Shown here: in pieces, positions 18,270 to 38,139 of the stretch
How positions within the stretch are numbered: position 1 is the first letter of the stretch
How the letters are laid out: every line of letters begins with the position of its first letter
Assembly: GCF_021021435.1 (NCBI RefSeq)
Contig: NZ_JAINWI010000004.1
Location: 124,001-188,000, forward strand
Length of the DNA stretch: 64,000 bases
Source of the DNA: Seohaeicola saemankumensis
Lineage (GTDB): Bacteria > Pseudomonadota > Alphaproteobacteria > Rhodobacterales > Rhodobacteraceae
Direction of reading: 5' to 3'
Translations under genes and position numbers: made by a program
The notes under the pieces: model-generated
What the model was told of the DNA's origin: nothing
What the model saw: only the letters and a program-made list of their open reading frames with translations
The model's database searches: none

Positions 18270-19205
18270 TCAGCCGCCTTTTGCCATCAGGATATCCACA
18301 TGCGTCGCAACCGACAGCGCGAGCGCGTCAAGATCATAGCCGCCCTCGAGCACGGATACGATCCTTCCGTCGCAAACCTCACCGGCCAGATCACAAAGAC
18401 GGTTGGTCAGCCATGCGAAATCCTCGGTCGTCCACCGCAATTGGGCCAGAGGGTCGTCCTTGTGCGCGTCAAAGCCTGCCGAGATCAGGATCAGCTCGGG
18501 CTTGAGCGCGCGCAGGATGGGAAACACCCGACCCTCATAGGCTGTCCGCATCGCGGCTCCGCCGCTGTCAGGCTCAAGCGGGATGTTGAAGATCGTATCA
18601 TGCGTCCCGCGTTCATCCTCTGCGCCGGTGCCGGGCCAAAGCGGTGACTGATGGGACGAGAAAAACACCGCGCGCGGTTCGTTCCACAAAAGATCCTGCG
18701 TTCCGTTACCGTGATGAACATCGAAATCCACCACCGCGATACGCGACAGGCCATAAGTGTCCAAGGCATGTTTAGCAGCGATCGCTACTGTCCCGAAGAG
18801 ACAGAACCCCATCGCAGTCTCGCGCTCTGCGTGGTGTCCGGGCGGGCGGGCGGCCACGAAAGCATTTTTCACGTCACCCGTCATCACAGCATCAACAGCG
18901 GCAACAGCGCCGCCAACCGCCCGACGCGCTGCCTCGACCGAGCCGCGCGACATATGGGTGTCGGCATCAATCTGGTTCCAACCCGATGCAGGCTCTGATG
19001 ACGTGATCCGGTCGATATAGGTTTGTGGATGGCAACGCAGGATGTCCTCATCCCCGGCCAATGGCGCTTGAAACCGGACCAGACTGGCAAAGCGGCCGCC
19101 CTGCAAGGCGCGCTCGACATATGCCAGACGCGCCACCTGTTCCGGATGTCCCGGAGGCGTCACGTGTCCCGAAAAGGCTTCATGCGTCCAAAGCCCTGTT
19201 GTCAT
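18270..19205 (-). CDS. Histone-deacetylase-family (acetylpolyamine amidohydrolase-like) protein
   Basis: Zinc amidohydrolase of the arginase/deacetylase fold, 311 residues. Motifs in order: RPPGHHAERETAMGFCLF (catalytic His pair) near residue 120, VVDFDVHHGNGTQDLLW (zinc Asp and His) near residue 155, SAGFDAHKDDPLAQL (zinc Asp) near residue 245, and LEGGYDLDALA with the active-site Gly-Gly-Tyr. Natural substrate in bacteria is uncertain; acetylated small molecules or polyamines are possible. Downstream of petR with about 57 bases between. Confidence 0.9.
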   Translation of the reverse strand: MTTGLWTHEAFSGHVTPPGHPEQVARLAYVERALQGGRFASLVRFQAPLAGDEDILRCHPQTYIDRITSSEPASGWNQIDADTHMSRGSVEAARRAVGGAVAAVDAVMTGDVKNAFVAARPPGHHAERETAMGFCLFGTVAIAAKHALDTYGLSRIAVVDFDVHHGNGTQDLLWNEPRAVFFSSHQSPLWPGTGAEDERGTHDTIFNIPLEPDSGGAAMRTAYEGRVFPILRALKPELILISAGFDAHKDDPLAQLRWTTEDFAWLTNRLCDLAGEVCDGRIVSVLEGGYDLDALALSVATHVDILMAKGG

Positions 19206-22368: not shown

Positions 22369-23253
22369 TCAGCCCGGGGTCATCCCGCGCATCCGCTCGG
22401 ACCGGCGGCGCAGAAGTTCCACGGTGGTCAGCAAGGCGATCGAGATTACAACCAGAATGGTCGCAACGGCCAGAATGGTCGGGCTGATCTGTTCGCGCAG
22501 ACCGATGAACATCTGCCAAGGCAGTGTTTTCTGACCGGCGGAACCGACAAGGAGCACCACAACGACCTCGTCAAACGAGGTGATGAAAGCGAACAGACCA
22601 CCCGAAATCACACCCGGCAGGATCAGCGGCATCTGGACCCGGAAGAATGTTGTAACCGGATTAGCGCCCATATTAGCCGCAGCCCGCGTCAGCGAGTTGT
22701 CAAAGCTCGACAACGTCGCGGTAACAGTGATGATCACGAAAGGTATCCCCAATGCAGCATGCGCCAGCACCACCCCCGCATAGGTTCCTTGCAGCCCTAG
22801 GTCCGAGAAGCCGAACGGGCGCGAGTAGAAAAAGAACATACCGGCAGATGTGATAATCAAGGGAACGATCATCGGTGAAATCAGCAATGCGGTGATCTGC
22901 TTGCGGAATGGCACATGCGGTTGCGTCAAACCGATCGCGGCCAAAGTGCCCAAGGTCACCGCAAGAAGCGTGGCCAAAGGCGCGATGATCAACGAGTTGG
23001 TCAGCGCCTGTATCCACGAATAGTCGCCATTCGCGCCCATGAAGTCCCGATAGTGCTTTAGCGAGTAACCCTCGGGATCAAGCCGCAGCATTTCCGGCGT
23101 GAAGGTAAAGAAATTTTCGGCGTTGAAGGATAGTGGGATGATGATCAGGATCGGAAAGATCAGATAAAAGAAGACCAGCCCGCAGATGAGGCGGAAGGTG
23201 TAAAACCAGATGCGCTGGCCGGTAGTTGCGTAAATTGGAAGTCTCGAGGCCAT
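22369..23253 (-). CDS. ABC transporter permease, PotC type
   Basis: 294 residues, six predicted membrane helices and the EAA loop SSFDNSLTRAAANMGANPVTTFFRVQMPLI near residue 195, the contact to the ATPase. The large loop after helix 1 (FNAENFFTFTPEMLRLDPEGYSLKHY) is typical of the second permease of spermidine/putrescine-type importers. Starts five bases after the other permease gene. Part of the 27012-21588 operon: ATPase, binding protein, two permeases, SDR. Confidence 0.9.
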   Translation of the reverse strand: MASRLPIYATTGQRIWFYTFRLICGLVFFYLIFPILIIIPLSFNAENFFTFTPEMLRLDPEGYSLKHYRDFMGANGDYSWIQALTNSLIIAPLATLLAVTLGTLAAIGLTQPHVPFRKQITALLISPMIVPLIITSAGMFFFYSRPFGFSDLGLQGTYAGVVLAHAALGIPFVIITVTATLSSFDNSLTRAAANMGANPVTTFFRVQMPLILPGVISGGLFAFITSFDEVVVVLLVGSAGQKTLPWQMFIGLREQISPTILAVATILVVISIALLTTVELLRRRSERMRGMTPG

Positions 23254-23258
23254 ATCAG

Positions 23259-24533
23259 TTATCCCAGCTTCACGTTATCGACGCCGACAAGCTTGTCGTA
23301 GATGTAGTAGAGGACCAGAATGACCACCAACATCAGCGTTCCCAATGCTGCAGCCAGTCCCCAGTTTCCGGATACGGCGAACTGGAAATAAATCCGGTTC
23401 GAGATGAAAGTGCCATCTGCGCCACCTACAAGCTCCGGCGTGATGAAATAGCCGACAGCCAGAATGAACACCAAGAGAGCGCCCGCGCCGATACCTGCCG
23501 TGGTCTGCGGAAAGTATACGCGCCAGAACGCAGTCCAGTTCGAGGCGCCCAAGGATTTCGCCGCGCGCAGATAGGAGGGTGGGATCGTTTTCATCACGGA
23601 GTAGAGCGGCAGGATCATAAACGGCAGCAGGATATGTGTCATCGCGATGATCACACCTGTCTGGTTGTTGATAAGCGGTAGCCGTTCGGCAAAGCCCAGC
23701 CATACCCAGAAATTGTTGATGACCCCTTGATCCTGCAGCAGGATTTTCCAAGCCGAGGTTCGGACCAGTAGTGAAGTCCAGAAGGGCAGCAGCACCAGTA
23801 TCAGCAACAGGTTCGAGGTTCGCACGGGCAGGTCTGCGAGCAACCAGGCGACGGGGTAGCCCAAGGCCAGCGTACAGAATGTGATCAGCAAGCTCAGGCC
23901 CAGCGTACGCAGCATCAGCTTTTGATAGATGCGTTGATCGGGGTCTTTGAACCGAATTCCCTCCGAAGTGCGTTCAGCGTCGAAGGCAGCAAGGAAATAA
24001 CTGGTCGTATAATACCCCGAGTTGGCTTTGATCGAGGCCCAGTATTCGATATTGCCCCAGTCATCATTCAGGTCCAGAAATTTTTCCTTGAACGGACCAT
24101 CGTTCTCAAGATCCCAGCGAGAAACCGGCCGTCCTGCACTGCGGAAAAGTGATGAAAATCCGGGGGATTCGTAATTGAAGCGGCGGCCAAGCTGTGTATG
24201 TGACCTATTCTCGAAGGCAGCCGCCAAATCGATCGCCATACCGCGATAAACCTCTTCGGGCGGTGTTTCACCCGAACGCGGATCCCAATCCTTTATCGAA
24301 GCGACAACATTCGGCATCAGGTCGGGGATATAATCAACGCCCGCTGTATTCTGCACAGAGCGCATCAGCATCGAGCCGATAGGCGCAACGAATGAGACCA
24401 TGACAAAGACCAGAAGCGGGGCGATCAGGATCAACGCCCGTATCTTCTGTTTTCGCAAGGCCTGATTCAGGCTCTGTTTCAGCGGTTTTCCGTCTGCAGA
24501 CAGAACCGGAGCGTCAAGCGATGCGTCGGACAT
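23259..24533 (-). CDS. ABC transporter permease, PotB type
   Basis: 424 residues, longer than a typical PotB (about 280-310) because of an inserted periplasmic domain of roughly 150 residues between helix 1 and helix 2 (from about residue 50 to 205, including GETPPEEVYRGMAIDLAAAF and NIEYWASIKANSGYYTTSYF). The core has the EAA loop MKTIPPSYLRAAKSLGASNWTAFWRVYFP near residue 320. Start ATG at 24533 (MSDASLDAPVLS) has GGGGAAAC upstream. Such extended PotB forms are common in Rhodobacteraceae. Confidence 0.88.
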   Translation of the reverse strand: MSDASLDAPVLSADGKPLKQSLNQALRKQKIRALILIAPLLVFVMVSFVAPIGSMLMRSVQNTAGVDYIPDLMPNVVASIKDWDPRSGETPPEEVYRGMAIDLAAAFENRSHTQLGRRFNYESPGFSSLFRSAGRPVSRWDLENDGPFKEKFLDLNDDWGNIEYWASIKANSGYYTTSYFLAAFDAERTSEGIRFKDPDQRIYQKLMLRTLGLSLLITFCTLALGYPVAWLLADLPVRTSNLLLILVLLPFWTSLLVRTSAWKILLQDQGVINNFWVWLGFAERLPLINNQTGVIIAMTHILLPFMILPLYSVMKTIPPSYLRAAKSLGASNWTAFWRVYFPQTTAGIGAGALLVFILAVGYFITPELVGGADGTFISNRIYFQFAVSGNWGLAAALGTLMLVVILVLYYIYDKLVGVDNVKLG

Positions 24534-24620
24534 ATGTTTCCCCGTCAGTATAACTGGCACCTGTTATCCGATGCCTTTTCTGGCCTTGGCAAAATCGGTC
24601 TACTACCGGCTTAGCGAAGG

Positions 24621-24645
24621 CCCGCGCAGCGGCAAACCGCGCGGG
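24621..24645 (-). other. GC-rich hairpin between binding-protein and permease genes
   Basis: CCCGCGC (24621-24627) and GCGCGGG (24639-24645) form a perfect 7-bp stem without a T run. It lies 44 bases past the binding-protein stop, the usual place for an RNA-stabilising or partially terminating hairpin that raises binding protein over permease. A similar hairpin follows the second importer's binding protein. Confidence 0.65.
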
Positions 24646-24688
24646 AAGTGGAAGAGAGCCGCAAAGCGCTCTTCCTCAAGTGCTACGA

Positions 24689-25792
24689 TTACTGCAGTAG
24701 CCATGCCTGGAATTGAGCATCCAGATCGTCACGGTAGCTGGCCCACCATTCGAAGTTGAACACGAAAGTGTTCACCGAGTTGGCAGGATCGGTGGGCATG
24801 TGCGGCTTCATGTCGACGCCAAGTTCGGCATGCTGACCCACCAGCGGTGCGGAGGATGCGCGTGCGGGACCGTAAGAGATATAGGCGGCCTGATCAGCAA
24901 GACGCTGGGTGTCGGTCGCGAACTCGACGAAATCCATCACACGGGCCAGACGGTCTTCAGGCAGACCGGCGGGAATGATCCAGCCGTCCAGATCGAACAT
25001 CTGCCAATCCCACAGCATACCGATCGGCTGGTCCTGCTCGACGATGGCCGAGAACAGACGACCGTTATAGGTCGAGCCCATCACGACTTCACCATCTGCC
25101 AGAAGCTGCGGGGTTTCCGCGCCGGCCGACCACCAGATCGTGTCGTCCTTGATGGTTTCCAGCTTTGCCAGCGCCTGTGCTACGCCTTCAGGTGTTTCGA
25201 GGGTGTCATATACATCCTCGATTGCGACGCCATCGCAGATCAGCGCCCATTCCATGTTACCGATCGGGCGCTTTTCGAGCGAGCGCTTGCCGGGGAATTT
25301 TTCGGTGTCGAACACATCGCAAACCGACGTGGGGGCTTCGGACACCAGATCAGTGCGGTAGCCGAAGGTGGTCGAGAACACGATCTGCGGGATGAAGCAG
25401 TCACCGATCAGTGTATCGCCGAAATCCTCGGACGCGGGCGTACCATCGGGGGCTGCGGCCAGCATCTCGTCGGGGTTGATCTCCATCGCCAGACCTTCAT
25501 CGCACAGGCGCAAGCCATCGGCGGCGGTCACGTCTACCAGATCCCATGTGATGTTGCCTGCTTCGGACATGGCCCGCAGCTTGGTCACCGCCTCGGCCGA
25601 GCTTTCGTCGGTGATGACGTTCAGGCCGGGATTATTGGCAACATAGGGTTCGATATAGGCTTTGACCTGGCTGTTCTGATAGGCCCCGCCCCAGGATACA
25701 ACTGTCATGCTGTCGGCCATGTTATCTTGTGCAAAAGCGGCTGCCGCCACCATCGTGGCCCCGGTGGCCAGAAGAGTTGTCTTGAGTTTCAT
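24689..25792 (-). CDS. Polyamine-type periplasmic substrate-binding protein (PotD family)
   Basis: 367 residues. The ATG at 25792 has AAGGAGTG upstream and gives a signal peptide MKLKTTLLATGATMVAAAAF ending in AQD; the frame reaching 25888 is not used. The mature protein opens MTVVSWGGAYQNSQVKAYIEPYV and contains GEVVMGSTYNGRLFSAIVE and FDLDGWIIPAGLPE, typical of the PotD/PotF-related cluster. The ligand could be a polyamine, a modified polyamine or another small cation and cannot be set from sequence. Middle of the five-gene importer operon. Confidence 0.88.
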   Translation of the reverse strand: MKLKTTLLATGATMVAAAAFAQDNMADSMTVVSWGGAYQNSQVKAYIEPYVANNPGLNVITDESSAEAVTKLRAMSEAGNITWDLVDVTAADGLRLCDEGLAMEINPDEMLAAAPDGTPASEDFGDTLIGDCFIPQIVFSTTFGYRTDLVSEAPTSVCDVFDTEKFPGKRSLEKRPIGNMEWALICDGVAIEDVYDTLETPEGVAQALAKLETIKDDTIWWSAGAETPQLLADGEVVMGSTYNGRLFSAIVEQDQPIGMLWDWQMFDLDGWIIPAGLPEDRLARVMDFVEFATDTQRLADQAAYISYGPARASSAPLVGQHAELGVDMKPHMPTDPANSVNTFVFNFEWWASYRDDLDAQFQAWLLQ

Positions 25793-25866
25793 ATTACACT
25801 CCTTGTTTAAGCCCGTTGTTCTGCGCGCCTTATCCCACGGGCTGGGCAAAGGCACCTTTCCAGCGC

Positions 25867-27012
25867 TCAGGCGTCGAGCGCGCGGCAATCTTCCGGAAGC
25901 CAGCCGATTTCAATCTGCTGCCCCGGTTTCAGACGCACCTGATCGGGTGCGTTTCTCGTCTTGACGACGAAATCTTCGTTTCCGGCTACCCGCAGACGGG
26001 TGCGGAAGATGTCGCCCATATAGATGAATTCCAGCACTTCGGCCTTGAGGGTATGGGCGCCGGGTTGCAGGCGGTCCTTGTTGAACTCGACCCGCTCGGG
26101 ACGGATCGAGACCCGTGTACGTTCTCCGACCTTAGTCACGTTGACGGGTTTGGCGTCGATCACCTCGCCACCATCCAGCTTGACGATGCAGGTATCGCCT
26201 TTGATCTCCTGCACGACACCTTCCATAGTGTTGTTCTCACCGATGAATTGCGCGACGAAGCTGTTTTGCGGCTGTTCATACAGCACATCGGGCGATGCAA
26301 GCTGCTGGATTCGTCCGTCATCGAACACGGCGACACGGTCCGACATCGTCAGTGCTTCGGTCTGGTCATGGGTGACATAGACCGTGGTAATGCCAAGATC
26401 ATGCGCCAGACGCGTGATCTCGAATTGCAGGGTTTCACGAAGCTGCTTGTCCAGCGCGCCCAGCGGCTCGTCCATCAGGACCAACTCTGGCTCGAAAACC
26501 AGCGCACGGGCCAGTGCGATCCGCTGCTGCTGGCCCCCTGACAGTTGCGCAGGACGACGTCCGCCGAACTTGCCCATTTGCACCATATCAAGGGCACGCT
26601 TGACCTTCTCTTCCCGCTCGGACTTGCCGACTTTGCGGACTTCCAGAGGAAAAGAAAGGTTTTCGGCCACGGTCATATGCGGAAACAAGGCATAGTTCTG
26701 GAACACCATCCCGATGCCACGTTTGTGGGGCGGAATATTGTTGATCGGCTTACCGTCCAGAAGGATTTCTCCGTGCGTGGCCGTTTCGAAACCTGCCAGC
26801 ATCATCAGGCAAGTGGTTTTGCCAGAACCGGAAGGTCCGAGCATGGTGAGAAACTCACCCTTGGGCATGGTCAGGTTAAGGTCTTTGACGACCAGAGTTT
26901 CCCCATCATAGCTTTTTTGCACACGCTCAAAAGCCACGAACGCATCGTTCGCACTTGATCCAGCCAAAGCAGGCTCCCCGTTTGTTGTTGTTGCACGATC
27001 TGCGCCGCGCAT
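25867..27012 (-). CDS. ABC transporter ATPase, PotA type
   Basis: 381 residues. Walker A GPSGSGKTT at 59-67, Q-loop VFQNYALFPHMTV, signature LSGGQQQRIALARAL, Walker B PELVLMDEPLGALD and the H-loop VYVTHDQTEAL are all intact. The C-terminal TOBE/OB-fold region (KVGERTRVSIRPERVEFNKD) completes the PotA/MalK layout. About 25 non-conserved residues precede the domain. First gene of the operon; its promoter should lie in 27013-27078, after the upstream gene's terminator. Confidence 0.92.
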   Translation of the reverse strand: MRGADRATTTNGEPALAGSSANDAFVAFERVQKSYDGETLVVKDLNLTMPKGEFLTMLGPSGSGKTTCLMMLAGFETATHGEILLDGKPINNIPPHKRGIGMVFQNYALFPHMTVAENLSFPLEVRKVGKSEREEKVKRALDMVQMGKFGGRRPAQLSGGQQQRIALARALVFEPELVLMDEPLGALDKQLRETLQFEITRLAHDLGITTVYVTHDQTEALTMSDRVAVFDDGRIQQLASPDVLYEQPQNSFVAQFIGENNTMEGVVQEIKGDTCIVKLDGGEVIDAKPVNVTKVGERTRVSIRPERVEFNKDRLQPGAHTLKAEVLEFIYMGDIFRTRLRVAGNEDFVVKTRNAPDQVRLKPGQQIEIGWLPEDCRALDA

Positions 27013-27142: not shown

Positions 27143-28513
27143 TCAGCCGAGCTCCTCGGAAATGGCTTTTGCCGTTTTTTCCACCACCTGATCGGCCTCG
27201 GCTTCGGTCAAGCAGAAGGGCGGCGCGAATCCCAGAATGTCGCCCTGTGGCATGGCGCGCCCGATGACACCGTGGCCTAAAAGTGCTGCTGCAACGCGTG
27301 GCCCGACCTTGTCGGAGGCATCAAACAGTTTTCTGCCGTCACGGTCGCGGACGAACTCGACGGCGCAAAGCATACCCTCGCCACGCACCTCGCCGACATT
27401 GGGATGATCCGCCAATGCAGCGCGCATCTGCGCATTCAGATAGGTTCCGACTTCGCCTGCGTTCCGGATCAGGTTTAGGTCATCCAGCAGCTTGAGATTG
27501 GCAACCCCTGCCGCCGCCCCTACCGGATGCGCCGAATAGGTCCAGCCATGACCGATCGGTCCGTTCTCATCGGTGCCCTGCTCCAGCACCTTCCACATCT
27601 TGTCACCTACAATCGAACCCGAAAGGGGCGCATATGCAGAGGTCAGGCCCTTGGCGATGGTGATCAGATCAGGTTTGATACCGTAGTGATCCGATCCGAA
27701 CATGCTGCCCAAGCGGCCAAAGCCGGTCACGACCTCATCCGCGATCAACAGGATATCGTGCTTTCGAAGAACCTCCTGAATGGCAGGCCAGTATCCTTCT
27801 GGCGGGGGAACGATCCCGCCAGTGCCCAGAACCGGCTCGCCGATGAAAGCGGCAATCGTGTCTGCCCCTTCACGCGCGATCAGCGCCTCAAGTTCGGCCA
27901 CCAGATGGGCGGTGAATTGCGCCTCGCTCATGTCGTCATGAGGACGGCGGAAGTAATAGGGCGCGTCGGTATGGATCACCTGCGCCAGAGGCAGGTCAAA
28001 CTTCTTGTGGAACAGCTCCAGTCCGGTCAAAGATCCAGTCACCAGCCCCGATCCGTGATAGCCACGCCAGCGGCTGATGATCTTCTTCTTCTCGGGTCGT
28101 CCGAGAATGTTGTTGTAATACCAGATCAGTTTGACGTTGGTTTCATTCGCATCCGACCCCGACAAACCGAAATAGACCTTGGACATCCCCTCGGGCGCGC
28201 GGTCCAGTATCATCTTGGACAGTGTGATGCTCGCCTCGGTCCCGTGACCGACATAGGCATGGTAATAGGCCAATTCGCGCGCCTGATCGGCAATTGCCTC
28301 GGCAATCTCCTGACGTCCGTAGCCGACATTGACACAGTAAAGCCCCGCGAAAGCATCCAGCAGGCGCGTCCCGTCACGGTCGGTGATGTGACAATCCTTG
28401 GCTGTCGTGATGATCCGCTGCGGGGCATTACCACGCGCGAATTCAGCAAGATGGGTCGACGGGTGAAAAAAGTTGTCGCGGTCCCATTGGGCCAATTGGT
28501 CATTTGTCAGCAT
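27143..28513 (-). CDS. Class III (omega) aminotransferase
   Basis: PLP enzyme of 456 residues. [13 protein letters not shown] at 118-130 (phosphate binding), Asp259 in [13 protein letters not shown] contacting the pyridine nitrogen, and PLP lysine Lys288 in [16 protein letters not shown]. Relatives act on diamines, beta-alanine, GABA, taurine or 2,4-diaminobutyrate. Divergent from the DoeA-like hydrolase operon over 192 bases that contain a palindrome on each side, so it is probably co-regulated with that operon; a DoeD-like role (diaminobutyrate transamination) is a hypothesis. SD AAGGAAG before the ATG at 28513. Confidence 0.87.
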
Positions 28514-28548: not shown

Positions 28549-28560
28549 GTTGTGCACAAC
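28549..28560. promoter_or_regulatory. Palindrome GTTGTGCACAAC, candidate GntR operator (left)
   Basis: A perfect 12-bp palindrome about 36 bases upstream of the aminotransferase start. Its core TGTGCACA recurs at 28657-28664. TTGT-NN-ACAA-like palindromes are typical of FCD-type GntR regulators, and such a regulator is encoded at 31061 in the divergent operon. Confidence 0.6.
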
Positions 28561-28614
28561 CTTTACAGCTATGCGTGTAACGTCAATCATATATGCCTAT
28601 TTTTTATAGTATTT

Positions 28615-28646
28615 CCTAAAAACGACAGGGGCATTTCGTTTTTAGG
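28615..28646. promoter_or_regulatory. Perfect 11-bp inverted repeat in the divergent control region
   Basis: CCTAAAAACGA (28615-28625) and TCGTTTTTAGG (28636-28646) are perfect inverted copies separated by 10 bases. It lies between the two TGTGCACA palindromes, about 60 bases before the DoeA-like start. It may be a second operator, a promoter-overlapping site or an RNA hairpin. Confidence 0.6.
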
Positions 28647-28655
28647 ATGGTCAAG

Positions 28656-28667
28656 ATGTGCACAAAT
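28656..28667. promoter_or_regulatory. Palindrome ATGTGCACAAAT, candidate GntR operator (right)
   Basis: Shares the 8-bp core TGTGCACA with the site at 28549-28560; the two cores are 106 bases centre to centre. It lies about 40 bases upstream of the DoeA-like ATG. Confidence 0.55.
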
Positions 28668-28705: not shown

Positions 28706-29905
28706 ATGTCCGTTCCGCCAATCCCTTTTGCAGACCTTCCATTCTCGGCCGAGGAATATAGCCGCCGCCTTGATCTGACCCGCACGGCAATGGCCGAACG
28801 CGGTATCGACGTGTTGTTTGTCGAAGACCCGTCGAACATGTCTTGGCTGACAGGCTATGATGGCTGGTCGTTCTATGTGCATCAGGGTGTGATCATCACC
28901 CATGACCGCGATCCGGTGTGGTGGGGGCGCAATATGGACGCGAACGGCGCCAAGCGCACAGCATGGCTGCCTCACGATCACCTGCGCCCCTATGATGATA
29001 CCTATGTGCAATCCAACGAGCGCCATCCAATGCAGCATCTGTCCGCGCTGCTATGCGAGATGGGGTTTGAAGCGGCCTGTATCGGCGTCGAGATGGAGAA
29101 TTACTATTTCTCTGCCAAGGCCTATGTCACCATGCTGACAGAGTTGCCTCGTGCCACTTTGGTCGATGCGACCGCCTTGGTGAACTGGCAGCGTGCCGTC
29201 AAGTCTCATGAGGAAATTACCTTCATGCGCCGCGCGGCGCGGATCGCCGAAAAGATGGTGGACACCGCAATCGAACGCGCTCGCCCCGGCGTTCGCAAAA
29301 ACGACTTGGTGGCCGAAGTGATGCGCGAGGCGATCATCGGCGTCGGCGAGGATTGGGGCGACTACCCTGCAATCGTGCCGATGTGCCCCTCGGGGGCCGA
29401 TGCCTCTGCGCCGCATATCACGTGGAACGGCGGAGAGTTCGAGAACGACCAATGCACCTTTTTTGAACTGGCAGGCGTCTATCGGCGCTATCATACACCA
29501 TTCTGCCGCACGGTTTATCTGGGCACACCGACAGACGAGGTGAAACGCGCCGAGGCCGCACTGATCGAAGGGCTTGAGGCAGGCTTGCAAGCAGCACGCG
29601 CCGGCAACCGTGCCTGTGATATCGCCGATGCCTTGGCCCGCCCTCTTGAGGCTGCGGGCATCCAGCGCGGTGCGCGCTGCGGCTATCCCATCGGGATCAG
29701 CTATCCCCCCGATTGGGGCGAACGCACGATCAGCCTGCGGTCGGAAGACCAGACCGTGCTGCAACCCGGTATGACGTTTCACTTCATGCCCGGTCTATGG
29801 ATGGATACATGGGGGATCGAGATTACCGAATCTATCCTGATCACCACGGATGGTCCGGCTGAAACCTTCTGCAACCGTCCACGGCGGATTTTTGTGAAGA
29901 CATGA
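28706..29905 (+). CDS. doeA: M24-family hydrolase, ectoine-hydrolase (DoeA/EutD)-like
   Basis: 399 residues, the length of known ectoine hydrolases. Start ATG 28706 with AAGGAAAG upstream. N-terminal creatinase-like domain includes DPSNMSWLTGYDGWSFYVHQ near residue 45 and WWGRNMDANGAKRT; the C-terminal pita-bread domain includes GYPIGISYPPDWGERTISL and MTFHFMPGLWMD. In M24 peptidases the metal ligands are Asp-Asp-His-Glu-Glu. Here several are changed (FFELAG, TPFCRT, GYPIGIS, HFMPG), as in metal-free members such as creatinase and DoeA. Known DoeA opens ectoine to N-acetyl-2,4-diaminobutyrate. First of a three-gene coupled operon. The symbol is by resemblance only. Confidence 0.78.
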   Translation: MSVPPIPFADLPFSAEEYSRRLDLTRTAMAERGIDVLFVEDPSNMSWLTGYDGWSFYVHQGVIITHDRDPVWWGRNMDANGAKRTAWLPHDHLRPYDDTYVQSNERHPMQHLSALLCEMGFEAACIGVEMENYYFSAKAYVTMLTELPRATLVDATALVNWQRAVKSHEEITFMRRAARIAEKMVDTAIERARPGVRKNDLVAEVMREAIIGVGEDWGDYPAIVPMCPSGADASAPHITWNGGEFENDQCTFFELAGVYRRYHTPFCRTVYLGTPTDEVKRAEAALIEGLEAGLQAARAGNRACDIADALARPLEAAGIQRGARCGYPIGISYPPDWGERTISLRSEDQTVLQPGMTFHFMPGLWMDTWGIEITESILITTDGPAETFCNRPRRIFVKT

Positions 29906-31068
29906 CAACACTCACGCGCACCCGCGACATTCTAGGGGATCTGATCGGATTTCCGACAGTCTCAGCTGACAGTAATCTGGACTTGATCGACCACATGGCC
30001 AACCTGCTGTCGGATGCGGGTGCGCATGTCGATCTGTTCCACGACGACAGTGGCACCAAAGCCAATCTGTTTGCCACAATCGGACCGGATCGGGAGGGGG
30101 GGATCGTTCTATCTGGCCATTCCGATGTGGTCCCCGTGACCGATCAGGACTGGACAAGCGATCCGTTTCGCATGGTCGAAAGGGATGGCGCGCTTTACGG
30201 GCGCGGCGCTTGCGACATGAAGGGTTTTATCGCCGCGGCGCTGGCAATGGCCCCTGACTATGCCGCACGAAACCTCAAGCGCCCCATCCATCTTGCCTTT
30301 ACCTATGACGAGGAAGTCGGATGCCTTGGCGCGCGATCTCTTGTGCCCGCTTTGCAATCACGCGGAATACGCCCCGCGATGGCCATCGTCGGAGAGCCGA
30401 CAGATATGCGGATCATCGAAGGCCATAAGGGCTGCTGTGAATACACGGTCGAATTTCGCGGGCTGGAAGGCCATGGCTCGAACCCTGATCGCGGCGTGAA
30501 CGCGGTAGAATACGCTGTGGCTTATGTCGCGCGGCTGATGGAGTTGCGCCATCAGTTGCGCCATCGCACCCCTGTCGGCAGCAGGTTCGAGCCGCCCTGG
30601 ACAACGATCAATATCGGTCGTCTTGCTGGCGGTGTTGCCCATAATGTCATCGCCAGCCGCGCCGAACTGGATTGGGAAATGCGCCCCGTTCAGGATTCGG
30701 ATACCGATTTCGTCAAAAAGACACTGGCAGATTATTGCAATGACGTCCTGCTTCCTCAGATGCAGGCCGTCTGTCCCGAGGCCGATATCACAACATATAT
30801 CATCGGCGAGGTCTGCGGGCTTGAGCCCATGGACGAGAACGAGGCGAGGCGGCTGGTTGCCGAACTGACAGGAGCCAATGGTGCGGATGTAGTCGCATTT
30901 GGCACCGAGGCAGGCTTGTTCCAGCAGATGGGTCTATCGGCCGTGCTTTGCGGGCCGGGCAGTATCGAACAGGCGCATAAAGCGGACGAGTTTGTGTCTC
31001 TATCCCAATTGGATCAATGTCTTTCAATGCTTCACGGGCTGGGTGACAGGTTGACCCGCTATGTCTGA
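29902..31068 (+). CDS. M20-family deacetylase (ArgE-like)
   Basis: 388 residues, acetylornithine-deacetylase-like zinc amidohydrolase. Metal and catalytic residues are in place: His73 and Asp75 in SGHSDVVPV, Asp105 in GRGACDMKG, Glu137-Glu138 in TYDEEVG, and EPTDMRIIEGHKG then VEFRGLEGHGSNPDRGVNA for the lid domain. Overlaps the hydrolase gene by four bases (ATGA) and the GntR gene by eight. In this context it would remove an N-acyl group from the hydrolase product, the step that the unrelated AstE-like DoeB performs in known ectoine pathways. It could instead be a true N-acetylornithine deacetylase. Confidence 0.83.
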   Translation: MTTLTRTRDILGDLIGFPTVSADSNLDLIDHMANLLSDAGAHVDLFHDDSGTKANLFATIGPDREGGIVLSGHSDVVPVTDQDWTSDPFRMVERDGALYGRGACDMKGFIAAALAMAPDYAARNLKRPIHLAFTYDEEVGCLGARSLVPALQSRGIRPAMAIVGEPTDMRIIEGHKGCCEYTVEFRGLEGHGSNPDRGVNAVEYAVAYVARLMELRHQLRHRTPVGSRFEPPWTTINIGRLAGGVAHNVIASRAELDWEMRPVQDSDTDFVKKTLADYCNDVLLPQMQAVCPEADITTYIIGEVCGLEPMDENEARRLVAELTGANGADVVAFGTEAGLFQQMGLSAVLCGPGSIEQAHKADEFVSLSQLDQCLSMLHGLGDRLTRYV

Positions 31069-31720
31069 TCACTCCGATGCGCGTAGTCGTTTTCTACGCC
31101 TGCATGACGCGCTGCGAACGCGGATCTGCATGCTTGACTATCCGCCTGGCACCCGCCTGTCCGAGGAAACCCTTGCAGCCGAATTCGGCACCTCGCGCAC
31201 ACCGCTCCGGCGGGTTCTCGCACGCCTTGAGGACGAGGGGCTTGTCATCTCGCAGCACGGCGTGGGTACGATCGTCACAGACGTCGACGCAGAGGAGATG
31301 GCGCGCACCTACGATCTGCGGCGTGAACTGGCAGGGCTTGTCGGGCGGCTGTCACCGGTGCCCGTTTCGGACGAAATCATCAAAGAGGCCGCGGACTTTC
31401 TCGACGCGGGGAAAATCTTGCTGAAGCAACCCGACACCCGTGCGCTGGCGGAGTTGAATATGGACTACTTCCATTTCGGCACCTCGCTGACCAATAACTT
31501 GGCGCTGCGCGAAATGTCCGAGCGGCTGTATTACCGCACGGCAAGGATCTGGCTGACCGCAACGCCGCGTCTGGACCTTGCCGAAGAAACGGCAATCTTC
31601 GTCTCGGAATTGCGTGACAGTTTTCAGGCGCTTGTGGCAAGGGACGGGCAGGCAGCCGCAGATGTGCGTCGCGCCCATATCTCGCTTTGTATCGCCCGAT
31701 TGAACCGGCACATGGCGTGA
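31061..31720 (+). CDS. GntR-family regulator, FCD type
   Basis: 219 residues: N-terminal winged helix (residues about 12-75; RICMLDYPPGTRLSEETLAAEFGTS and PLRRVLARLEDEGLVISQHGVGTIV) and an all-helical FCD effector domain behind it (DLRRELAGLVGRL through MDYFHFGTSLTNNLALREM). The start overlaps the deacetylase gene by eight bases. Being the last gene of the operon it most likely regulates, it is the natural candidate for binding the TGTGCACA palindromes at 28549 and 28656. Confidence 0.88.
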   Translation: MSDHSDARSRFLRLHDALRTRICMLDYPPGTRLSEETLAAEFGTSRTPLRRVLARLEDEGLVISQHGVGTIVTDVDAEEMARTYDLRRELAGLVGRLSPVPVSDEIIKEAADFLDAGKILLKQPDTRALAELNMDYFHFGTSLTNNLALREMSERLYYRTARIWLTATPRLDLAEETAIFVSELRDSFQALVARDGQAAADVRRAHISLCIARLNRHMA

Positions 31721-33306: not shown

Positions 33307-33981
33307 TCAGTTTGAATGCTCGCGCAAATCCAGCATCTCGCGGATCTGCTCCATTCCCTGCAGCATATCCTCGCGCATGGCCTTCGCAGCGCCTTCGGAA
33401 TCACCGGTCCGCATGCATTCCAGCATATCCTTATGCTTGTCCGGCAGGTTCTGGGTTCCGATCCGGCCGATCACCACCCGCAGGGATGGCCCGAACCTGA
33501 GCCACAAACGTTCGGCCATTTCTGCAAGGATCGGCGCCTCTGCAAGATTATAGAGAAAGGCATGAAAACGATAGTTGTTCTGCAAATAGGCGCGCAGATC
33601 TCCGGCGACTATCGCGCGGTCCAGCTTCTTGTCGATCTCAGTCAGCTGGTTCAGGTCAGACGGTGTTGCGCGTTCTGTGGCGCGCAACCCCAGATGGGAT
33701 TCAAGCCATTGTCTTGCAAATATAATTTCAGATATATTGGCGGCTGTAAGTTCCGGAACACAAACACGCCGATTGCCCTGAAACACCAACGCACCCTCGG
33801 CTGTCAGACGGCGGATTGCCTCGCGGACCGGGGTCATGCCCGCGTTCAGGCGGTCCGCCACACCCTGAATCGTCAGGGCCTGCCCCGGCGCTATTTCGCC
33901 AAACAGGATCTGGTCGCGCAACTGGCGATAGATCACCTCATGTGCAGGCGGGTTCGAGGCCGCATCTGTAAGAGTGGTCAT
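33307..33981 (-). CDS. GntR-family regulator, FCD type
   Basis: 224 residues from the ATG at 33981 (MTTLTDAASNPPAHEVIYRQLRD); ATGs further upstream (for example MEDGARK) are in frame, but the wHTH starts just after the chosen one. Winged helix VIYRQLRDQILFGEIAPGQALTI and LNAGMTPVREAIRRLTAEGALV, then an FCD domain with HLGLRATERATPSDLNQLTEID and FHAFLYNLAEAPILAEM. It sits between the diamine aminotransferase gene (next downstream, same strand, 102 bases away) and divergent potF. Both neighbours' control regions carry the same 11-bp site. Confidence 0.87.
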   Translation of the reverse strand: MTTLTDAASNPPAHEVIYRQLRDQILFGEIAPGQALTIQGVADRLNAGMTPVREAIRRLTAEGALVFQGNRRVCVPELTAANISEIIFARQWLESHLGLRATERATPSDLNQLTEIDKKLDRAIVAGDLRAYLQNNYRFHAFLYNLAEAPILAEMAERLWLRFGPSLRVVIGRIGTQNLPDKHKDMLECMRTGDSEGAAKAMREDMLQGMEQIREMLDLREHSN

Positions 33982-34093
33982 TTTCCGTGCACCGTCTTCC
34001 ATTCTGCCACTTTTCCCTGCGCTAGCCCAAGACACCCGCTTGCGAGTTTAGCGGTGTCGTGAAAACATTACCATATTGCCTAGAGGCAGAAAC

Positions 34094-34106: not shown

Positions 34107-34152
34107 CAGAACGGGGACGGAAGATCCTCAATCTATGATAGGGAGTTACTTG

Positions 34153-35238
34153 ATGAGACATCACTTGCTGACCATGACTGCGACTATCGCGCTCATGGCA
34201 GGCGCTGCATCGGCGCAGGAAGTTCGCGTCTACAACTGGTCCGACTATATCGACGAAGCCTTGCTGGCAAAGTTCGAGGCCGAAACCGGTATCAAACTGA
34301 TCTATGACGTCTTCGACAGCAACGAGGTTCTGGAAACCAAGCTGCTGGCCGGCGGTTCGGGCTATGACGTTGTTGTGCCTTCCGGAACATTCCTGCAGCG
34401 TCAGATCCAAGCGGGCGCCTTCCAGGAGTTGGACAAGTCCAAGCTGCCCAATTTGGAAAACATGTGGGACGTGGTTTCGTCACGGACCGAGCAGTATGAC
34501 CCCGCCAACGCCTATTCGATCAATTACATGTGGGGCACCACAGGTATCGGTGTGAATGTTGGCAAGGTCACCGAGATCCTTGGCGAGGACGCGCCAATCG
34601 ACAGCCTGTCGCTGATCTTTGATCCCGCCAATGCCGAGAAACTGGCAGCCTGCGGTATCATGATGTTGGACGCGCCTGCAGAAATGATCCCTGCCGCGCT
34701 CCAGTTTCTGGGCGAGGACCCAAACAGCCACGACCCCGAGGTCATCGCCAAGACCGAGCCGGTGTTCATGGCGATCCGTCCACATATCCTGAAGTTCCAC
34801 AGCAGCGAATACATCAACGCGCTTGCAAATGGTGATATCTGCGTGGCGCTTGGCTGGTCGGGCGACATCCTTCAGGCCCGTGACCGCGCAGCCGAGGCCG
34901 ATAACGGGATCGAGATTGCCTATAACGCGGCCAAGGAAGGTGCACAGATGTGGTTTGACCAGATGGCCATTCCCGTTGATGCACCCAACGTTGAAGGCGC
35001 CCATGCTTTCCTGAATTTCATCATGGACGCCGAGAACATGGCTGCGGCATCGAACTATGTCTACTACGCGAACGGAAACCTCGCCTCGCAAGAGTTTCTG
35101 GTGGAAGACGTGATCGGCGATCCCGCAATCTATCCCTCCGAGGAAGCGCTGAACAACCTGTTCACGACGACACCTTGGGATGCGGGCGTCCAGCGCACTG
35201 TGACCCGCCTTTGGACCAAGATCAAATCGGGCACCTAA
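34153..35238 (+). CDS. potF: Putrescine-type periplasmic binding protein (PotF)
   Basis: 361 residues from the ATG at 34153, with AGGGAG upstream; signal peptide MRHHLLTMTATIALMAGAAS cut before QEVRVYNWSDYIDEALLAKF. The VYNWSDYID opening, GTTGIGVNV, and CVALGWSGDILQARDRA are characteristic of PotF rather than PotD. First gene of potFGHI-oxidase, with a GntR site at its promoter. Captures putrescine or a close diamine in the periplasm. Confidence 0.92.
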   Translation: MRHHLLTMTATIALMAGAASAQEVRVYNWSDYIDEALLAKFEAETGIKLIYDVFDSNEVLETKLLAGGSGYDVVVPSGTFLQRQIQAGAFQELDKSKLPNLENMWDVVSSRTEQYDPANAYSINYMWGTTGIGVNVGKVTEILGEDAPIDSLSLIFDPANAEKLAACGIMMLDAPAEMIPAALQFLGEDPNSHDPEVIAKTEPVFMAIRPHILKFHSSEYINALANGDICVALGWSGDILQARDRAAEADNGIEIAYNAAKEGAQMWFDQMAIPVDAPNVEGAHAFLNFIMDAENMAAASNYVYYANGNLASQEFLVEDVIGDPAIYPSEEALNNLFTTTPWDAGVQRTVTRLWTKIKSGT

Positions 35239-35250
35239 GACCCGGCAACA

Positions 35251-35279
35251 AAGGCTCGCGCGGCTAACGCGCGGGCCTT
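35251..35279 (+). other. GC-rich hairpin after potF
   Basis: AAGGCTCGCGCG (35251-35262) and CGCGCGGGCCTT (35268-35279) pair over 12 bp with one wobble; loop of five bases. There is no T run, so it more likely stabilises the potF 3' end or terminates partially than stops transcription fully. It sits 13 bases after the potF stop and 26 before potG. Confidence 0.7.
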
Positions 35280-35304
35280 CACAATATTCAGGACAGGGTT
35301 CGGC

Positions 35305-36429
35305 ATGGCACAGACCGTTTTCGCCCCGTGGGATGATCCGCAGGCAAAGCCTCTCATCCAGTTCAAGAACGTGACCAAGCGGTTCGGCGATTTCACAGCT
35401 ATCGAGAACCTGACGCAGGATATCTACGAACGAGAGTTCTTCGCGCTTCTGGGTCCGTCCGGCTGCGGCAAGACAACACTGATGCGGATGCTTGCCGGTT
35501 TCGAGAATACCAGCGAAGGGCAGATATTGATCGCAGGGCAGGACATGGCCAATGTCCCTCCAAACAAGCGCGCTGTGAACATGATGTTCCAGTCCTACGC
35601 GCTGTTCCCGCATCTGAGTATCTGGGAAAACATCGCTTTCGGTCTGAAACGTGAAGGCAAGCCCAAAGACCAGATCGCCGCGCGCGTTGACGAGATGTTG
35701 CGGCTGACGCGGCTCGAAAAATTCGCCATGCGCAAACCGCACCAGATTTCGGGCGGCCAACGCCAGCGTGTGGCCTTGGCACGCAGCCTTGCAAAAGCCC
35801 CCAAACTGCTGCTGCTGGACGAGCCATTGGGCGCGTTGGACAAGAAGCTGCGTCAGGATACTCAGTTCGAGTTGATGGACATTCAAGAGAAGACAGGCAC
35901 CACTTTCGTCATCGTGACCCATGATCAGGAAGAGGCGATGACAGTCTCCAGCCGCGTGGCTGTGATGGATGAAGGCCAGATCATTCAGGTCGCGACCCCT
36001 GCACAAATCTACGAGGCACCGAATTCTGTCTATGTGGCGGATTTCATCGGTGACGTGAACATCATCGACGGTGTCGCCACGCCGGAGGGTGATGCCTATC
36101 ACATCGCTTGGGCTGAAGGTCAGGCACCGTTCACGGCCAAGACAGCGACACGCTTTTCCGAAGGTCAACGCTGCTATCTTGCCATCCGGCCCGAGAAGGT
36201 GGGGATCTCGGCGGATCGTCCTGCAGATATGGCGAATGCTGTGCAAGGACAGATCATCGACATCGCCTATCTGGGCAATATCTCAACCTATCATGTGAAG
36301 CTTGCCAACGGTCAGATGATGAAGGCACAGACGGCCAATACGCGCCGCCTGTCGCGCCGTAGCTTCACTTGGGAAGATCGGGTCTGGCTGTCATGGACGG
36401 ACACTGCTGCCGTCGTGCTGGAGAATTAG
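35305..36429 (+). CDS. potG: Putrescine ABC transporter ATPase (PotG)
   Basis: 374 residues. Walker A GPSGCGKTTL near residue 49, Q-loop MFQSYALFPHLSI, signature ISGGQRQRVALARSL, Walker B PKLLLLDEPLGALDKK, H-loop VTHDQEEAM, and a C-terminal TOBE-like region (RCYLAIRPEKVGIS). Preceded by potF and a hairpin, followed by potH after four bases. The N-terminal 20 residues (MAQTVFAPWDDPQAKPLIQF) match the PotG family extension. Confidence 0.93.
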   Translation: MAQTVFAPWDDPQAKPLIQFKNVTKRFGDFTAIENLTQDIYEREFFALLGPSGCGKTTLMRMLAGFENTSEGQILIAGQDMANVPPNKRAVNMMFQSYALFPHLSIWENIAFGLKREGKPKDQIAARVDEMLRLTRLEKFAMRKPHQISGGQRQRVALARSLAKAPKLLLLDEPLGALDKKLRQDTQFELMDIQEKTGTTFVIVTHDQEEAMTVSSRVAVMDEGQIIQVATPAQIYEAPNSVYVADFIGDVNIIDGVATPEGDAYHIAWAEGQAPFTAKTATRFSEGQRCYLAIRPEKVGISADRPADMANAVQGQIIDIAYLGNISTYHVKLANGQMMKAQTANTRRLSRRSFTWEDRVWLSWTDTAAVVLEN

Positions 36430-36433
36430 GGCA

Positions 36434-37324
36434 ATGCGGCGCTTCATCCTGATCGCAGTGCCGTTCATCTGGCTGATGGCGCTGTTTCTGGTGCCTTTCG
36501 CTATCGTGCTCAAGATATCCTTGTCTGATATCGCGCTTTCCATTCCGCCATATACACCCCAACTGGACCTTACCGAGGGTTGGGCCGGTATCAAAGCGTT
36601 TTTCGCGGAACTGGACTTTGAAAACTATGTCTTTCTGACGCAGGATCAGCTTTATTGGAAAGCCTATGTCTCCTCGCTCCAGATTGCCCTGATCTCGACC
36701 ATTCTGACGCTGCTGGTTGGATATCCAATCGCCTATGGCATGGCCCAGGCCCCCGATGAATGGCGCGCAACCCTTCTGCTGCTGGTCATATTGCCGTTCT
36801 GGACCAGCTTTCTGATCCGCGTCTATTCGTGGATGGGCATACTATCGAACGAGGGGTTCCTGAACCAGTTTCTGCTCTGGACAGGTCTGATCTCGACGCC
36901 GCTTGTGATCCTGAACACGAATACGGCTGTCTATATCGGCATCGTCTATACCTATCTGCCCTTCATGATCCTGCCGATCTACGCGGCCCTCGAGAAGATG
37001 GACGGTTCGCTTCTGGAAGCGGCAGAGGATCTTGGCTGCTCACGCCTGACCGCCTTCTGGTTGGTCACCATACCGCTGTCCAAGTCGGGGATCATTGCGG
37101 GCTGTTTTCTGGTCTTCATTCCGGCGCTGGGCGAGTTTGTCATCCCCTCGCTTCTGGGTGGCTCGGATACATTGATGATCGGCAAAGTGCTCTGGGAGGA
37201 GTTCTTCTCGAACCGTGACTGGCCTGTTGCCTCTGCAGTGGCCGTTATCCTGCTGCTGATCCTGATAATTCCCATCGTGCTGTTCCAGCGCAACGAACAG
37301 AAGCAGCGAGAGATGGATCAATGA
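36434..37324 (+). CDS. potH: Putrescine ABC transporter permease (PotH)
   Basis: 296 residues with six helices. First helix FILIAVPFIWLMALFLVPFAIV; periplasmic loop LDFENYVFLTQDQLYWKAYVSSLQ; coupling EAA loop ALEKMDGSLLEAAEDLGCSRLTAFWLVTIP near residue 195. Overlaps potI by four bases (ATGA). Typical PotH length and layout. Confidence 0.93.
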   Translation: MRRFILIAVPFIWLMALFLVPFAIVLKISLSDIALSIPPYTPQLDLTEGWAGIKAFFAELDFENYVFLTQDQLYWKAYVSSLQIALISTILTLLVGYPIAYGMAQAPDEWRATLLLLVILPFWTSFLIRVYSWMGILSNEGFLNQFLLWTGLISTPLVILNTNTAVYIGIVYTYLPFMILPIYAALEKMDGSLLEAAEDLGCSRLTAFWLVTIPLSKSGIIAGCFLVFIPALGEFVIPSLLGGSDTLMIGKVLWEEFFSNRDWPVASAVAVILLLILIIPIVLFQRNEQKQREMDQ

Positions 37325-38139
37325 GACGGTTTTCATGGTTCAACGCCACTTCGCTGACGCTGGGATTCGCGTTTCTATACCTGCCGATGATCATCTTGAT
37401 TATCTACAGCTTCAACGCATCCCGACTGGTGACAGTCTGGGCGGGCTTCTCGACACAATGGTACGGGACCCTATTACAGAACCAGTCTTTCCTTGATGCG
37501 GCATGGGTCACGGTCAAAGTGGCTATCGCCTCGTCCACGATCGCAACGGTTCTGGGCACAATGGGCGCCTATGTTCTGGTGCGCGGGGGGCGCTTTATGG
37601 GGCGTACCGTGTTTTCCGGCATGATCTACGCACCGCTGGTGATGCCGGAAGTCATCACCGGTCTGTCACTTTTGTTGCTCTTCATCGGGATCGGGCTTGA
37701 TCGCGGTATCTTCACCATCGTTCTGGCGCATACGACCTTTTCGATGTGCTTCGTGTCGGTAGTTGTGTCCTCGCGGCTGGTCAGTTTTGACAAGTCACTA
37801 GAAGAAGCAGCACTTGATCTAGGTTGCTCGGCCTTCGATGCGTTCCGCCTTGTGACCTTGCCGATCATCGCACCTGCGGTCATTTCAGGCTGGCTATTGG
37901 CGTTCACGCTGTCGCTTGACGATCTTGTCATTGCGTCCTTCACCGCAGGACCATCTGCCACGACCTTGCCGATCAGGATATTCTCGGCCGTGCGGTTGGG
38001 CGTGTCACCAGAAATCAATGCTCTATCGACGATCATGATCGCCATTGTCACGATAGGGGTGATCACGGCGTCGATCCTGACCAAACGCAGCAGTCTTGCC
38101 AAACAGAATGACGAACAGGCGGCCGCCCGCACCTCATGA
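37321..38139 (+). CDS. potI: Putrescine ABC transporter permease (PotI)
   Basis: 272 residues. Helix 1 LTLGFAFLYLPMIILIIYSFN followed by ASRLVTVWAGFSTQWYG, the family signature; EAA loop SFDKSLEEAALDLGCSAFDAFRLVTLP near residue 165; last helix IGVITASILTKRSS. Overlaps both potH and the oxidase gene by four bases, so all four later genes of the operon are translationally coupled. Confidence 0.93.
   Translation: MRRFSWFNATSLTLGFAFLYLPMIILIIYSFNASRLVTVWAGFSTQWYGTLLQNQSFLDAAWVTVKVAIASSTIATVLGTMGAYVLVRGGRFMGRTVFSGMIYAPLVMPEVITGLSLLLLFIGIGLDRGIFTIVLAHTTFSMCFVSVVVSSRLVSFDKSLEEAALDLGCSAFDAFRLVTLPIIAPAVISGWLLAFTLSLDDLVIASFTAGPSATTLPIRIFSAVRLGVSPEINALSTIMIAIVTIGVITASILTKRSSLAKQNDEQAAARTS

Follow-up and report, generated by a model that had tools for sequence, protein, structure and literature searches.

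Do two identical short palindromes between a pair of divergent genes mark the ends of a repression loop, and if so, which protein would close it? The question is raised by a 192-bp intergenic region of the window (the whole 64-kb stretch of DNA analyzed here), where an original prediction had placed two palindromic cores at 28551-28558 and 28657-28664, 106 bp apart. An exact search of the 64 kb returned the word TGTGCACA at these two positions only, with a start-to-start distance of 106 bp; in 15-base context the left word reads TCATGTTGTGCACAA and the right word TCAAGATGTGCACAA. The cores lie within two putative operators, to which no strand is assigned: operator 1, TTGTGCACAA (28550-28559), on the upstream side of an aminotransferase gene, and operator 2, ATGTGCACAA (28656-28665), on the upstream side of a hydrolase gene. 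Each core had been said to lie near a divergent start, and indeed, measured from its first base, the left word is 38 bp away from the start of the aminotransferase gene (28513, minus strand), and the right word is 49 bp away from the ATG of the hydrolase gene (28706, plus strand), a start picked by homology. At the scale of the whole 64 kb the pair is unremarkable, as two or more copies of TGTGCACA were found in 41 of 100 shuffles. When the intergenic region itself was shuffled, two identical 8-bp palindromes appeared in 4 of 1000 sequences and an inverted repeat with arms of at least 11 in 2 of 1000. The local chance of the palindrome pair is thus low, although not nil, and therefore the comparison across loci had to decide. 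Elsewhere in the window genome there is one further perfect TTGTGCACAA (G000:C8:76517-76526, L112), near open reading frames without Pfam families; with one mismatch allowed, 90 places matched vs. 44 for the reversed control, base composition being uncorrected in this count.

The divergent gene on the left encodes a class-III aminotransferase (27143-28513, minus strand), which may have a DoeD/Atf-like role, and is co-directional with genes for an ABC transporter of the spermidine/putrescine (PotABCD) type (22369-27012, minus strand). Approximately 3 kb left of the transporter genes lies a gene of the histone deacetylase family (Pfam Hist_deacetyl, 18270-19205), the product of which may be an acetylpolyamine amidohydrolase. 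Rightward, an M24 hydrolase gene (28706-29905, plus strand) is followed by one for an ArgE-like M20 deacetylase (29902-31068, plus strand) and by the gene of a GntR regulator with an FCD domain (31061-31720, plus strand), the proposed binder of both operators. The best NCBIfam model for the hydrolase is the ectoine hydrolase DoeA/EutD (TIGR02993), with a score of 574.2 bits, below the cut-off of 613. With an ectoine-hydrolase-like gene below the model cut-off and then an ArgE-like deacetylase gene (28706-31068), the pathway would be either a modified ectoine route or one for a neighboring substrate. After the rightward genes, on the other strand, a second FCD GntR gene (33307-34035, minus strand) is found with a second aminotransferase gene; it adjoins genes for another ABC transporter (34135-37324) and for an FAD-dependent oxidoreductase (38136-39470), and likely regulates this neighboring transporter/oxidoreductase set.

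As predicted, the gene at 31061-31720 encodes a GntR protein with an FCD domain, both domains being above their Pfam cut-offs (GntR 64.4 bits, cut-off 27; FCD 40.0 bits, cut-off 24.3). Among FCD GntR proteins, the VanR subgroup has six effector-domain helices and the FadR subgroup seven. In a single-chain model (pLDDT 88, 12 sequences), six helices follow the DNA-binding domain (residues 77-94, 104-122, 126-141, 147-170, 173-192, and 196-218), which would place the protein, as modeled, in the six-helix VanR subgroup. Foldseek matches of the model include Brucella 7u5q, Escherichia coli McbR and Atu1419 of Agrobacterium fabrum. Atu1419 was third by E-value, with a phmmer value of 5.9e-6 and 22-24% identity, and its TM-scores (0.51-0.64) are lower than those of Brucella 7u5q (0.77-0.79) and E. 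coli McbR (0.82). DNA contacts of Atu1419 include Glu34, Arg45, Thr46, and Arg49 (PMC7797058); the window family has Glu35, Arg46, Thr47, and Arg50 at the same intervals, it being intervals and not aligned residues that were compared, and Glu35, Arg46, and Arg50 are invariant in 12 sequences of the family. The predicted operator, TTGT-GC-ACAA, with a profile of 84 sites, fits the GT...AC boxes 2-3 nt apart by which palindromic operators are described in a study of the FadR subfamily (PMC4494728).

In orthologous control regions the palindromes are conserved, a point on which the original prediction had been made to depend, and their presence tracks the gene of the 31061 protein. One hydrolase-protein scan, in which the GntR gene was not used for selection, gave 30 loci. 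TGTRYACA was present upstream of the hydrolase in 13/13 loci with an FCD GntR gene nearby and in 0/17 without one, absence meaning here absence from the fetched stretch. In each of the 13, one or more strict sites lie no further than 450 bp 5' of the hydrolase match, and no TGTNNACA occurs in the 450 bp upstream of this match in the 17 others; these include L051, the hydrolase of which is only 41% identical and which was dropped from later tables. L031 and L032 have one TGTGCACA each, located elsewhere. On such comparative grounds, the 31061 protein appears to be the best supported candidate for binding the palindromes.

It is very unlikely that another binder, either the second FCD GntR (33307-34035) or the MocR-type EnuR, uses them. 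The former is encoded close by, but as a separate gene it was seen in 11 of the 47 loci with a site pair (window included; many stretches may stop short of it) and is found in two of the 16 loci without a 31061 homologue, L034 and L042, both of which lack sites; it therefore does not explain the sites and was rejected as their binder. Ectoine genes are elsewhere under the control of EnuR, in whose consensus TTGT and ACAA arms are likewise found (PMC8739950), but these five-base arms are separated by 6 bp, whereas the palindromes of the window, TTGTGCACAA and ATGTGCACAA, are contiguous and thus differ from the EnuR operator ATTGT-N6-ACAAT. Moreover, the 31061 protein has FCD in place of the aminotransferase-like sensor domain, and no match to a Chelatococcus EnuR-like protein was found in the window genome at 1e-45. 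With this site shape and this search result EnuR was likewise rejected as the binder. At 1e-100 the EnuR-like search gave zero matches in 394 genomes; at 1e-45 it gave 10 of 38 GntR-positive and three of 36 GntR-negative genomes, with proteins of 29-40% identity that may be other MocR proteins. As a control the query plasmid itself was recovered, the test being weak for the family as a whole.

For homologues of the regulator, two sets of genomes from the family (248 and 394) and one from the class (385) were searched, giving 20, 38, and 8 positive genomes, respectively; the three sets overlap, with the window's own genome in each, and 45 stretches were fetched. Site pairs were counted in 47 of the 50 loci having both the hydrolase and a GntR homologue (window included), 42 with both sites strict and five with one degenerate site. 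The degenerate sites of L036, L057, and L081 score 2.9, 5.0, and 1.3, and so do not exceed the highest-scoring chance site of a locus lacking the regulator (5.2, L033). L095 was taken out by hand and counted as unpaired, although the score rule would have passed its pair; its second site is degenerate (score 2.6) and the spacing is 73 bp, near seven turns. This exclusion leaves the strict-pair analysis untouched. In L094 and L097 no site was found, and the regulators of L094, L095, and L097 are the most distant of the set, with 41-44% identity to the window regulator. A further nine GntR loci, whose stretches contain no hydrolase, did not enter the count of 50. Strict pairs do occur in two of them, L086 (104 bp) and L092 (83 bp); no pair was found in L066 and L073, and no strict word in L056, L062, L096, L098, and L099, of which L056 lacks one despite 60% identity and the stretch of L062 stops just 5' of the gene. 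Genome G020 has two GntR homologues: L056, beside transporter genes and without strict sites, and L068, beside the hydrolase and with a pair at 105 bp.

The spacings of the 47 pairs fall into classes of 82-87 bp (12 loci), 93-97 bp (4 loci), 103-108 bp (29 loci), and 125 and 129 bp (2 loci), clustering near 8, 9, 10, and 12 helical turns. The distance to a multiple of 10.5 bp is at most 2.1 bp in 43 of the 47 pairs, where a uniform spread would give 40%; spacings of 87, 97, 108, and 129 bp are 2.5-3 bp off a whole turn. In the Rayleigh test at 10.5 bp, R was 0.74 for all 47 pairs (p = 7e-14) and 0.78 for the 42 strict pairs (p = 3e-14; 40/42 within 2.1 bp), these and the following p-values being a guide only and overstated, since the loci share ancestry. 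With representatives of less than 80, 70, and 60% identity, p was 5e-9 (n = 31), 5e-7 (n = 25), and 3e-4 (n = 10), respectively, and over 500 random draw orders of the representatives in the 60% set the median p was 6e-4 and the worst 0.03. Without the 103-108 class the signal persisted (n = 15, p = 2e-4; at 70% identity n = 10, p = 0.009). In each strict, representative or class-removed set the mean phase is approximately 0.4 bp or less from a whole turn; the optimum is not sharp, the fit being about equally good for any period between 10.25 and 11 bp. On the regulator tree there were at least eight changes of turn class, with 22 of the 42 inner branches weakly supported and two pairs of identical rows in the tree. 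The helical-turn argument, which had been drawn from one 106-bp pair at about ten turns, is thus extended, phase being kept across the family and through several changes of length.

The distance between the sites does not follow the length of the intergenic region (143-598 bp, n = 45, gene starts by homology), as Pearson correlation was -0.20 (p = 0.19) and Spearman correlation 0.11 (p = 0.48). Such independence is the criterion given for "common" double sites in the FadR-subfamily study (PMC4494728), and it suggests that the palindrome pair acts as a unit. The spacing also persists over six types of divergent partner, namely the aminotransferase (13 loci), a transporter ATPase (10), EutB (9), an EhuB-like protein (8, one of them at only 30% identity), an AsnC-type regulator (4), and EutC (1); for two loci no partner type was assigned. 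EutB was above its cut-offs in both proteins scanned (L030 and L078), EutC of L090 was above the PRK08291 cut-off and below that of TIGR02992, and EhuB of L087 was above its cut-off. The EhuB-like partner of L060 had no model match at 1e-80, the sole threshold used. The EutB, EutC, and EhuB partners point to hydroxyectoine, ectoine or a close relative as the substrate. This assignment stays provisional, as the hydrolases scanned, those of the window and of three relatives (580.6, 583.1, and 610.7 bits), are all below the ectoine hydrolase cut-off of 613.

By comparison, then, the sites follow the regulator, occur as pairs and keep their helical phase; binding, bridging, repression, and the inducer are what we infer. 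In the mechanism proposed here, the 31061 FCD GntR would bind both TTGTGCACAA-type palindromes, one at each divergent promoter, and the dimers on the two sites would be bridged, either as a tetramer or by contact between two dimers. Bridging would close a short DNA loop of approximately ten turns and silence both directions, with the leftward promoter serving the uptake and transamination genes and the rightward promoter the hydrolase-deacetylase-regulator operon. As the regulator gene lies in the rightward operon, the regulator would also control itself. A compound of the pathway would release it from the DNA, and by analogy with EnuR this could be an intermediate of ectoine breakdown. We consider it likely that the palindromes serve such looped double-operator repression by the 31061 protein, of the kind proposed for Atu1419.

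The same regulator might instead block each adjacent promoter from an independent operator, with no loop formed. In the window a TTGACG hexamer (28581-28586, minus strand), by consensus match the probable -35 element of the leftward aminotransferase promoter, has its first base 27 bp upstream of operator 1, and with a 17-bp spacer the leftward -10 element would overlap operator 1, by two bases. In favor of this reading, the expected -10 falls partly within operator 1 in loci with a -35-like hexamer; furthermore, Atu1419 binds each of its palindromes alone (PMC7797058), and in the study of the FadR-subfamily divergons 71 of 100 cases with a regulator gene and double sites behave as independent (PMC4494728). 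By the criterion given in the same study, however, independent sites separate as the intergenic region grows (PMC4494728), and here the spacing does not; nor is there an evident reason why independent sites should stay in helical phase when their spacing changes by 10-21 bp. We therefore regard two independent operators as unlikely. It is still harder to believe that the divergent promoters, with polymerases or -35 elements back to back, determine the phase and a bridging repressor does not. A TTGACA-like hexamer (at least 5/6) does lie 26 or 27 bp upstream of the operator 1 10-mer in 17 of 47 loci, window included, while at random positions an equally good hexamer occurs anywhere in a 20-bp range in 7%. 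Yet the phase is much the same with this hexamer (16/17 loci within 2.1 bp of a whole turn) as in the 30 loci without it at that offset (27/30), such hexamers are rare on the operator 2 side (five hits over 30 offsets in 47 loci), and the start of the divergent gene is as far as 200-446 bp from operator 1 in ten loci.

Between the two operators lies an inverted repeat, TCCTAAAAACGA-N10-TCGTTTTTAGGA (28614-28647, no strand assigned), with the right arm 13 bp from operator 2. The perfect repeat with 11-bp arms that had been reported at 28615-28646 is present, although the arms are one base pair longer, 12 bp each (28614-28625 and 28636-28647), with 10 nt between them. A right arm like TCGYTTTT (at least 7/8) exactly 13 bp from operator 2 was found in 23 of 47 loci, and the good copies have an arm gap of 9-11 nt. 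The suggestion that the repeat is a second operator stands only in part. Its sequence is without the palindrome, and it was rejected as a third GntR operator; among the 16 loci without the GntR gene examined for it, L039, which also lacks the palindromes, has a good copy at the hydrolase promoter (14/16 positions, 0/200 shuffles), and L033 and L050 have weak ones. A site for another protein does fit. The repeat is centered close to where the -35 of the rightward promoter is expected; a TTGACA-like match of at least 5, sought 20-39 bp upstream of operator 2, was found in none of the 23 right-arm loci and only in three of the 24 others. The repeat is probably a separate element, to which a second regulator would bind at the hydrolase promoter near the -35; a RegA/PrrA-like site was considered for it and set aside.

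The alternative reading as an RNA hairpin in the leader seems rather improbable to us. The repeat folds as RNA to -13.9 kcal/mol (z -2.87), its arm gap varies between 9 and 11 nt, and the single sigma-70-like match of the promoter scan, the rightward TTTACA-N17-AATCAT at 28562-28590, would place it in the hydrolase leader. That match is nevertheless at chance level (one found, 0.5 expected), and the alignment shows TTTATG or TTGATG in place of its first hexamer in L024-L028; in addition, the right arm holds its 13 bp to operator 2 as described, no terminator-like site was found, and the inferred leftward transcript would begin to the left of the repeat. Of the whole account, the protein-site reading of the inner repeat is the least secure. 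The idea that the repeat marks a wide regulon was discarded, as AAAARCGA-N9-11-TCGYTTTT was present in 12 of 295 genomes (the window's included) vs. 7 for the reversed control, with no clear enrichment, and a laxer pattern gave four places in the window genome vs. two for the control. By eye, the pattern matches in L105, L110, and L111 could be terminators. The one in L111 (1501-1525), a hairpin flanked by genes homologous to those of the second aminotransferase and the transporter ATPase, could be a site or a terminator. In L100 (from 1501; genome G165, without a listed GntR match) an TGTGCACA word lies slightly downstream of the match.

Taken further, the comparison suggests that (hydroxy)ectoine-type catabolism has an undescribed FCD GntR repressor, different from EnuR and acting by a closed loop, the operators of which were shifted by whole-turn jumps (8, 9, 10, and 12 turns) while the partner changed among six types; our confidence in this broader claim is about evenly balanced. 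If true, the loci would amount to a naturally occurring set of loop lengths, all for the same repressor. That repression by a loop depends on helical phase is usually demonstrated with a single model promoter into which bases are inserted; here the insertion experiment seems to have been run by dozens of related genomes, which kept the in-phase lengths, so that looping by an FCD GntR repressor becomes directly testable. The result also points to a non-EnuR regulator of ectoine-type catabolism, both in Rhodobacteraceae and in some further Alphaproteobacteria (the Roseibium loci L038, L040, and L041, and L093 of another family), and provides paired TTGTRYACAA as a motif for finding the regulon of the 31061-type regulator. 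The mechanism itself is of a known kind; what stands out is the series of whole-turn spacings.

Lac repressor, which loops DNA by bridging two operators in a manner dependent on helical phase, shares the proposed bridging and its phase dependence, but the protein family is unrelated. No FCD regulator of ectoine genes was found in the open-licence literature searched, as judged by titles and the starts of abstracts, and a 2026 study links EnuR, AsnC and, in Bacillota, PucR to ectoine catabolism (PMC13188858). EnuR, the known repressor of ectoine catabolism, resembles the window protein in its GntR superfamily, ectoine catabolic genes, and TTGT/ACAA arms; it is, however, of the MocR/GabR type with PLP and 6 bp between the arms of its consensus ATTGT-N6-ACAAT, whereas the window protein has FCD (PMC8739950). 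The FadR-subfamily divergons also have a GntR site pair between divergent operons, one with the regulator gene, and a nearly constant inter-site distance, with no helical-turn classes reported in the part of that study available (PMC4494728). Atu1419 is likewise an FCD GntR, of the VanR type, with a short TGT..ACA palindrome and two sites in one control region. It is a tetramer, each dimer of which sits on an ATGTATACAT palindrome, and looping was proposed between palindromes 190 bp apart (PMC7797058). The distances of 190 and 109 bp given there (PMC7797058) correspond to 18.1 and 10.4 turns, the second not being whole. Unlike the window system, Atu1419 governs hydroxycinnamate degradation from sites 190 bp apart, and its tetramer is established (PMC7797058).
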